Assembly: GCF_000800255.1 (NCBI RefSeq)
Contig: NZ_CP009747.1
Location: 1,364,001-1,428,000, forward strand
DNA length: 64,000 bases
Direction of reading: 5' to 3'
Origin: Pseudomonas parafulva
GTDB lineage: Bacteria; Pseudomonadota; Gammaproteobacteria; Pseudomonadales; Pseudomonadaceae
Made by a program: the position numbers and the translations under genes. Shown here in pieces: positions 28,517-30,036 of the stretch; the first letter of the stretch is position 1, and each line of letters begins with the position of its first letter. The notes under the pieces were generated by a model. That model did no database searches. It saw only the letters and a program-made list of their open reading frames with translations, and was not told the origin of the DNA.

Positions 28517-29047
28517 GTGGAGCGGATCTGGGAAAACGTCTGGCAGGCGGTAGTGGCCGAATTCGCCGACATTACCGATGAAAGCGAGGTCACACGGATC
28601 GTCGTGCGTCTGATGATGGCCGCAGTGCTTGGGGCCGTGTTGGGCTTCGAGCGTGAGCATCGTGGGAAATCGGCGGGTGTGCGCACCCACATGCTGGTGT
28701 CCATGGGCGCGGCGTTGTTCGTATTGGCGCCGGGTATGGCCGGTGCAGACGATCAGGCGCTCAGTCGAGTGATCCAGGGCATCGTTGCAGGCATTGGTTT
28801 TCTCGGTGCAGGCACCATCCTCAAGGGCAATGGACGTGACACCAGTCATGTCAAGGGCCTGACCACTGCTGCGGGGCTGTGGATGACGGCCGCCATCGGC
28901 ACGGCTGCGGGCATGGGGCGTGAGGCTACGGCCCTGGTGAGCACCGTGCTGGCATTGCTGGTACTGGCCAGCATGCCGCTGTTGGTCGGCAAGGTGGAAG
29001 ACGAGAACGAGGAGAAGAAGGACGAGGAGGGTGGTCGGAAACACTGA
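28517..29047 (+). CDS. MgtC/SapB-family membrane protein
   Basis: A 176-residue inner-membrane protein with four or five helices. The MgtC core is clear: RLMMAAVLGAVLGFEREHRGKSAGVRTHMLVSMGAALF, then GIVAGIGFLGAGTILK and GLTTAAGLWMTAAIGTAAGMG. The C-terminus is a highly charged tail of Glu and Lys. Relatives affect Mg homeostasis, ATP synthase activity and intracellular survival. GTG is the start, with GAGGA 6 bases upstream. It shares its 3' region with the end of the CrcY-like sRNA on the other strand, as mgtC does beside crcY in P. putida. Confidence 0.88.
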   Translation: MERIWENVWQAVVAEFADITDESEVTRIVVRLMMAAVLGAVLGFEREHRGKSAGVRTHMLVSMGAALFVLAPGMAGADDQALSRVIQGIVAGIGFLGAGTILKGNGRDTSHVKGLTTAAGLWMTAAIGTAAGMGREATALVSTVLALLVLASMPLLVGKVEDENEEKKDEEGGRKH

Positions 29048-29067
29048 GGGGAGCCGAAGCTCCCCTC
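29046..29067 (-). terminator. UUCG-loop hairpin ending the sRNA
   Basis: GAGGGGAGC-TTCG-GCTCCCCTC on the minus strand: 9-bp stem closed by the very stable C(UUCG)G loop. The loop orientation favours a role for the minus-strand RNA; the stem overlaps the last bases of the mgtC stop codon. The T-tract is weak (GTGTTTCC), so some readthrough is possible. Confidence 0.65.
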
Positions 29068-29383
29068 TAGGTGTTGTTGCCTGCTCTTTTATTATTATTC
29101 AAACCGGCCTGTTGTTGTTTTTGTCAGCCGGTTCCGGTGTAGCCGGGCCCCTATCTGGGGCCAAGAGCAAACGTATTTTTTTGAGCGCTGGCCTGCATTC
29201 GATCCTGACTGTCGCTACCTGAAGGTAGTTTTGTTGTTCTGTGTCGAACCGGGGGCGAGCCCCACATTGCTGCCTACTCCAAAAAAATCTGCTTGCTGCG
29301 CCTCTGCCGTGTTGTTCTTGTTATGTCAGAGCCGGTGCATGTTGTTTTTATTGGGTGTGTCGCGATTTTTTATTTTTGTTGTG
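29046..29383 (-). ncRNA. crcY: CrcY/CrcZ-type Hfq-Crc-sequestering small RNA
   Basis: No protein is encoded here, but the minus strand has at least seven A-rich motifs of the AAnAAnAA type bound by Hfq/Crc: near 29364-29382, 29338-29353, 29309-29322, 29229-29241, 29110-29125, 29086-29100 and 29070-29080. The predicted RNA starts with CACAACAAAAATAAAAA, much like known CrcZ 5' ends. One motif sits in the loop of a stem AACCGGC/GCCGGTT (29102-29133). The RNA ends in a 9-bp hairpin with a C(UUCG)G tetraloop at 29046-29067. A sigma-54 promoter lies just upstream. In P. putida crcY is adjacent to an MgtC-family gene, as here. Length about 338 nt; exact ends are inferred. Confidence 0.88.
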
Positions 29384-29393
29384 CCAAAGACAT

Positions 29394-29410
29394 AGCAGGT
29401 GGCGTGCCAA
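29394..29410 (-). promoter_or_regulatory. Sigma-54 promoter of the CrcY-like sRNA
   Basis: On the minus strand the sequence reads TTGGCACG-CCAC-CTGCT. The invariant GG (29408-29407) and GC (29396-29395) are exactly 12 bases apart, with one mismatch to TGGCACG-N4-TTGCW. This places the start site near 29383, at the first A-rich motif. It fits the known RpoN and CbrB dependence of crcZ and crcY. Confidence 0.82.
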
Positions 29411-29492
29411 CTTTTTAATTTCCTTTTAAATCAATGATTTGCTGTTTTTTGGCAGTATGGGGAGCGCGCACGAACCTCTCGAATTGTTTCCG

Positions 29493-29532
29493 TGTTACCC
29501 GCTTGGCGGCCGCCGACGCTGTGCGGGTAACA
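29493..29532. promoter_or_regulatory. Putative CbrB upstream activating sequence
   Basis: TGTTACCCGC (29493-29502) and GCGGGTAACA (29523-29532) form a perfect 10-bp inverted repeat about 110-150 bases upstream of the sRNA start. The outer half-sites TGTTAC and GTAACA match the half-sites reported for CbrB, but here they are 28 rather than 14 bases apart. It could instead be a plain hairpin past the end of the acetyltransferase gene. Confidence 0.6.
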
Positions 29533-29556: not shown

Positions 29557-30036
29557 TCACCCTGCGGCGAAGTTGTGCAGACGCTCGCCCTCTAACCGAT
29601 AGCGAATCCATTCAGACTGGGCTTGCGCGTCCAGAGCCTCGTAGAAGCCGATGGCTGGCGCATTCCAGTCCAGTACGCTCCACTCCAGGCGTGCGCAGCC
29701 TTTGGTCAGCGCTTCGCGGGCGATGTGGCGCAGTAGTTGGCGACCGGCGCCGTCACCACGGTGCTCAGGGGTGATGTACAGGTCTTCGAGGTAGATACCG
29801 TTGCGGCCCAACCAGGTGGAGTAGCTATAGAAGAAGACGGCAAAGCCGATGGGCTGACCGTCACGTTCGCAGATCAGTCCGTGTACGGTGCTGCCGTCAT
29901 CGAACAGGCTGCGTTCGATGTCGGTGACGCTGGCTACCACCTGGTCTCGGGCTCGCTCGTAGTCCGCAAGCTCAGTGATGAAATCGAGGATCTGTGCGGC
30001 GTCGCTGCGCTGGGCTGGACGAATGGTCAGGCTCAT
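29557..30036 (-). CDS. GNAT-family N-acetyltransferase
   Basis: A 159-residue protein with a full GNAT fold, close to the diamine/spermidine-type acetyltransferase group: LYITPEHRGDGAGRQLLRHIAREAL is the acetyl-CoA loop, followed by CARLEWSVLDWNAPAIGFYEALDA, a typical motif B. The ATG at 30036 follows AAGGAATG; an upstream in-frame start would overlap that site. A likely role is acetylation of polyamines or amino acid-like amines, but the substrate is not shown by the sequence. Confidence 0.85.
   Translation of the reverse strand: MSLTIRPAQRSDAAQILDFITELADYERARDQVVASVTDIERSLFDDGSTVHGLICERDGQPIGFAVFFYSYSTWLGRNGIYLEDLYITPEHRGDGAGRQLLRHIAREALTKGCARLEWSVLDWNAPAIGFYEALDAQAQSEWIRYRLEGERLHNFAAG

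Follow-up and report, generated by a model that had tools for sequence, protein, structure and literature searches.

The gap between an mgtC-family gene and a GNAT acetyltransferase gene in Pseudomonas parafulva looks empty of genes, which raises the question of what this stretch of chromosome encodes. The window that we analysed comprises 64,000 nt of this genome (GCF_000800255.1, NZ_CP009747.1 1,364,001-1,428,000), which is 5.09 Mb long and held in a single contig. The mgtC-family gene occupies positions 28517–29047 on the plus strand (PF02308, MgtC, 3.6e-36) and the GNAT gene positions 29557–30036 on the minus strand (PF00583, Acetyltransf_1, 7.6e-20), so that both neighbours match real Pfam families. 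From the mgtC stop at 29047 to the end of the GNAT gene at 29557, the list of open reading frames holds only short, mechanically called ORFs, in agreement with the initial annotation, which had described the gap as seemingly gene-free and had proposed a CrcY-like regulatory RNA on its minus strand.

A covariance search, suggested as a check in that annotation, supports this proposal. The Rfam family RF01675 (CrcZ) matches 29013–29382 of the minus strand with 281.4 bits (E 1.2e-77; gathering cut-off 95), and the match runs end to end, covering model positions 1–398 of 398. It is the sole above-cut-off Rfam match in the window; matches to Rfam P11 and COG2908 in the gap were rejected as lying far under their cut-offs. 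Judged from its sequence, the RNA, crcY, is an unremarkable addition to a known RNA family and the orthologue of P. putida CrcY, convergent with mgtC and with the GNAT gene on its 5′ side. Its predicted start at ~29382–29383 agrees with the ~338-nt transcript (29383–29046) drawn initially; the 3′ end is predicted between 29046 and 29013, and the RNA is probably longer than first drawn, because the Rfam match runs to 29013, within the 3′ end of mgtC.

Along this RNA, we found six clusters of AAnAAnAA, the Hfq/Crc motif consensus given in the available part of PMC12533007. They lie on the minus strand at 29367–29380 (AACAAAAATAAAAA), 29342–29352 (AATAAAAACAA), 29312–29322 (AACAAGAACAA), 29231–29238 (AACAACAA), 29112–29122 (AAAAACAACAA) and 29089–29099 (AATAATAATAA); a seventh motif counted originally (AACAACA, 29078) is off consensus. 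In 2000 dinucleotide-preserving shuffles, the mean number of clusters was 0.77 and the maximum 4, with 0/2000 reaching six, and crcY is the densest 338-nt stretch for this pattern on either strand of the window. The predicted fold has a z-score of -5.36, with 0 of 100 shuffles folding equally well. Motif display in a hairpin loop, expected at one site, is seen in the predicted fold at two, motifs 3 and 5. The UUCG-capped 3′ hairpin of the initial annotation, GAGGGGAGC-UUCG-GCUCCCCUC, is likewise present in the predicted fold at 29067–29046 of the minus strand.

This 3′ hairpin abuts the stop codon of mgtC on the opposite strand, an arrangement that recurs at related loci. Among the 27 rows with an mgtC gene (58 loci given, the window counted twice), the stop lies directly against the hairpin in 25 and is 7 and 9 bases off in the other two. 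Because of this close juxtaposition, the hairpin is probably a two-way terminator common to crcY and mgtC, and a pyrimidine-rich crcY tail past the hairpin would probably lie antisense to the last mgtC codons. The hairpin is followed by no clean U-run, which makes the exact 3′ end of crcY uncertain.

Upstream of the RNA, we scanned the sequence with patterns that we take to be the strict sigma-54 and IHF consensus. A sigma-54 (RpoN) box, TGGCAC-N5-CTGCT, lies at 29409–29394 of the minus strand, beginning 27 bases ahead of the RF01675 model start, where an RpoN promoter had indeed been placed. The window holds no second strict match; since 0.36 matches are expected by chance, we argue for this box from its position and not from its rarity, and boxes of the same form occur in the loci of relatives. 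An IHF consensus site, AATCAATGATTTG, is found at 29429–29441 of the plus strand, flanked by the CbrB subsites on one side and the promoter on the other, and is the one match to WATCAANNNNTTR in the window, with 0.30 expected by chance.

CbrB subsites F1, R1 and R2 have been defined in the P. putida crcZ and crcY promoters (available part of PMC6296734). By this definition, the minus strand upstream of crcY carries an exact F1 subsite, TGTTAC, at 29527–29532 and an exact R-type subsite, GTAACA, at 29493–29498, centred, relative to the predicted start, at about -112, as R′ is in P. putida crcY; a possible extra R-type subsite, GAAACA at 29485–29490, is weak, with one mismatch. The P. putida promoters contain R1 and R2, whereas no exact copy of either turned up ahead of crcY, the exact elements there being F1 and the single R-type subsite in the R′ position. 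TGTTAC/GTAACA occurs four times in the window (both orientations), two of these upstream of crcY. According to the available part of PMC6296734, P. putida crcY is IHF-dependent and has an extra GTAACA (R′) at -112, whose substitution was without effect, F1 being the most important subsite. Since each element alone could be due to chance, we argue for the promoter from the order and spacing of its elements: measured to the start of the sigma-54 box, the F subsite stands 123 bases upstream in the window and 122–123 in L063–L070, the best eight of 144 relatives, window aside, and the R subsite 89 and 87–88 bases, respectively. The promoter parts of crcY, as predicted from this arrangement, are the sigma-54 box, the IHF site and the CbrB subsites, the last two absent from the initial annotation.

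A whole-genome scan detected two RF01675 members. The second is CrcZ (G000:C1:88597-88984, 334.6 bits), located between cbrB and pcnB, where crcZ is known to lie, and in keeping with the expectation that a CrcZ would be coded elsewhere in the genome. Like crcY, this CrcZ belongs to the same Rfam family and has a sigma-54 box and TGTTAC/GTAACA sites upstream, but it differs in its cbrB-pcnB location, in the letters of a 29-nt block described below and in overall sequence, sharing 67% DNA identity with crcY. Identity of crcY to 15 named mgtC-linked pseudomonad copies is higher, at 75.1–86.5%, the best being Pseudomonas wayambapalatensis (RNA 86.5%, mgtC 87%, GNAT 80%). An mgtC gene stands beside the RNA in 15 of 27 named pseudomonad loci, which were picked by exact pattern and are not a random sample; this fits the MgtC-family context that was originally cited for crcY, and mgtC is presumably also the neighbour of crcY in KT2440. 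Being on the mgtC side and nearer to the mgtC-linked copies than to its own CrcZ, the window RNA is, on synteny and identity, CrcY and not CrcZ.

By published description, P. putida KT2440 CrcY is alike in being a CrcZ-family RNA with F1, an R-type site at about -112, an IHF site and a sigma-54 promoter (available part of PMC6296734), and Pseudomonas syringae CrcX belongs to the same RNA class (available part of PMC8871633). The RF01675 family was present in 395 of 398 genomes of a genus sample. The P. parafulva genome also contains hfq, a cbrB gene identified by place and domains, and a crc-like gene. In the PDB, the product of this crc-like gene hits 4jg3, ‘Catabolite repression control protein’, with 1.7e-155 and, as its best match, 2myi (8.2e-167), labelled exodeoxyribonuclease III. 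With CrcZ and CrcY together, this genome would have carbon catabolite control in its two-RNA form.

The genome itself gives the family of the RNA, its motifs, the parts of its promoter and the gene order around it, as well as hfq, cbrB and a crc-like gene. We consider it very probable (roughly 0.96) that the gap encodes CrcY, a CbrB/sigma-54-driven decoy RNA titrating Hfq/Crc, orthologous to the P. putida RNA and paralogous to the CrcZ of the same genome; a blank stretch of the P. parafulva genome would now be filled with a global regulator. By analogy with relatives, for which CrcY function has been described in P. putida (available parts of PMC6296734, PMC8871633 and PMC12533007), crcY would be transcribed, depend on CbrB, bind Hfq/Crc and exert a physiological effect. 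On exhaustion of a preferred carbon source, CbrB would bind the TGTTAC/GTAACA sites, IHF would bend the DNA between these sites and the promoter, and sigma-54 polymerase would start crcY at ~29382. The resulting RNA of 340–370 nt, with its six AAnAAnAA sites, of which two sit in hairpin loops of the predicted fold, would bind Hfq with Crc, and the translational repression of catabolic mRNAs would be lifted. This follows the published model, in which a shortage of good carbon leads CbrB and sigma-54 to induce the RNA, whose A-rich sites then titrate Hfq/Crc off mRNAs (available part of PMC8871633). A point against it is that, on overexpression of CrcY or CrcZ, many motif-bearing targets showed no rise (available part of PMC12533007). 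The proposal that CrcY is the ‘main antagonist’ of catabolite repression goes further than the sequence allows, as the CrcZ copy scores higher and sequence cannot give relative dose.

Could crcY instead be decaying or weakly expressed, with CrcZ doing almost all of the work? Some features lean in this direction: crcY is the shortest among 49 RNAs of its type (335 nt, next 342, longest 375, same measure for all), its score lies below that of its own CrcZ (281.4 vs 334.6 bits), and its Rfam alignment has gaps of 15 and 10 nt. However, the six motifs, sigma-54 box, F1 subsite, IHF site and 29-nt block are all intact, which would not be expected of a decaying copy, and we regard this reading as very unlikely. 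Still less credible is the view that the gap hides a protein gene or only prolongs the 3′ end of mgtC or of the GNAT gene. Three mechanically called plus-strand ORFs, 63, 62 and 111 aa in length, do overlap it, but the minus strand matches RF01675 along the whole model and has stops in all three frames, and crcY's own predicted promoter also argues against such a view.

We aligned 61 RNAs (49 CrcY/X-type and 12 CrcZ-type) from 74 loci considered, 7 of which were dropped for want of a regular-expression hit; the loci are top-scoring matches and not a random sample, and the pattern-picked L035–L061 were excluded. The CrcY/X type is a sequence class that does not separate CrcY from CrcX and whose definition uses a portion of the invariant block described here, the 12 RNAs outside the class coming from the cbrB locus. 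Across the 61 RNAs, A-rich motif positions are conserved at 0.94, vs 0.83 elsewhere, and six motif clusters are present in 46 of 49 CrcY/X-type and 11 of 12 CrcZ-type RNAs. Outside the motifs, a near-invariant 29-nt block, CAGCGCTCAAAAAAATACGTTTGCTCTTG, occupies 29162–29190 of the minus strand, with at least 98% identity per position among the 49 CrcY/X-type RNAs. Read from 29190 to 29162, CAGCGCUCAAAAAAAUACGUUUGCUCUUG is the longest such run in the CrcY/X type, the next longest runs measuring 8 nt. With pattern-picked RNAs included, AGCGCUCAAAAAAAUA stands immediately 5′ of CG(U/C)UUGC in 65 of 78 distinct RNAs.

Part of the 29-nt block is paired in the Rfam structure, and five pairs of a long-range helix between GAUUUUUUUGG and CUCAAAAAAAU are already contained in that structure. 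In a covariation test on this helix by partner swapping, own partners averaged -8.2 kcal/mol and swapped partners -7.8 kcal/mol, one kind of swap being even better, with six distinct pairs only. A scan for antisense partners of CCAAGAGCAAACG, allowing at most one mismatch, returned six matches in the genome, one of them crcY itself. Two genomes showed a tandem pair of CrcY/X-type cassettes (L071 in G051 and L074 in G086), each cassette with a sigma-54 promoter of its own, the promoters being 537 and 672 bases apart, respectively.

While crcY itself is ordinary for pseudomonads, the distribution of such RNAs across the order is the part worth following. CbrAB has been described as unique to Pseudomonadaceae (available part of the review PMC8871633) and as ‘exclusive’ of Pseudomonads (abstract of PMC6296734). 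We surveyed an even sample of the order, 293 genomes, in which f1 denotes the window's own family. RF01675 was matched at E <= 0.001 in 60 of them, 48 outside f1, and above the cut-off in 15, with 3 outside f1, all from family f2. Many of the 51 matches outside f1 are below the Rfam cut-off (3 above); 37 lie just downstream of cbrB and 14 do not. For 36 of the 51, the distance to the cbrB orthologue is 174–341 bases on the same strand, and the match in G661 is likewise adjacent; this adjacency survey omitted six second copies from f1. In L110–L113, L115 and L116, cbrA lies upstream and pcnB downstream of the RNA. These matches suggest that CrcZ occurs well outside Pseudomonadaceae. Using E <= 1e-150, cbrB was found in 200 of the 293 order genomes, 13 of the 200 in f1, and in 13 of 274 genomes of a class-wide sample, 3 of those 13 inside the order.

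We then compared 60 cbrB-downstream regions from 25 families outside f1, chosen by hand from cbrB-positive rows for spread and not at random, with 11 control regions, of which G431 comes from inside the order and the other ten from outside it. At least three sense motif clusters were present in 54 of the 60, vs 2 of 60 in antisense and none of the 11 controls. At least one such region was seen in 23 of the 25 families, and the six regions with fewer clusters were both from f8, both from f9, one from f29 and one from f6. Shuffle p was <= 0.05 in 51 regions and > 0.05 in 9. TGTTAC or GTAACA occurred in 57 of the 60 whole 1.1 kb regions, vs 25.7 (maximum 36) in 100 mononucleotide shuffles; in the first 400 bases, with strand ignored, the count was 36 of 60 vs 11.0, weaker than that for whole regions. 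A sigma-54 box, by a looser pattern than the strict crcY scan, stood 20–80 bases ahead of a motif in 33 regions, and pcnB was found in 39. The controls, cut at 700 bases, had 0 or 1 cluster each, three of them reaching shuffle p <= 0.05 on a single cluster, and a subsite in 2 of 11; neither a sigma-54 box nor pcnB was found in them.

Because motif-rich cbrB-downstream regions occur in 23 of 25 families, in contrast to the controls, the circuit appears order-wide, with exceptions (f8, f9). We think it likely that the CbrAB-CrcZ decoy circuit extends beyond Pseudomonadaceae and is widespread across the whole GTDB order, perhaps even ancestral to it, arranged as cbrB, CbrB-type sites, often a sigma-54 box, an A-rich RNA and pcnB, with many RNAs having diverged out of reach of the Rfam model and some apparently forming double cassettes; in the same proposal, the CCGUUUGC-type element, kept in several RNAs, and the 29-nt CrcY/X block would suggest a function in addition to Hfq titration. 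Among the open-licence papers that our literature search listed, we found no earlier report of cbrB-linked CrcZ-like RNAs across the order. If such RNAs do lie downstream of cbrB throughout the order, a circuit called pseudomonad-specific would be far more ancient than that label implies, and comparison could test how it evolved and what part Crc plays in it. An order-wide count of Crc (198/293, E <= 1e-60) was set aside as evidence because exonuclease III-like paralogues are not separable from it, a PDB exodeoxyribonuclease reaching 2.6e-57.

Several individual loci deserve mention. CrcZ-like A-rich RNAs with CbrB-type sites, often with a sigma-54 box, lie downstream of cbrB in L102–L116 and L124–L183, from many families, and many cbrB-downstream RNAs outside f1 escape RF01675 or fall under its cut-off. 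In L114 (f8), a CrcZ-like RNA lies beside pcnB only, the cbrB match of the same genome being on another contig. Finally, L137 (G471), L160 (G425) and L180 (G402) each have, downstream of one cbrB, two sigma-54 boxes with A-rich motifs after each, apparently double cassettes.
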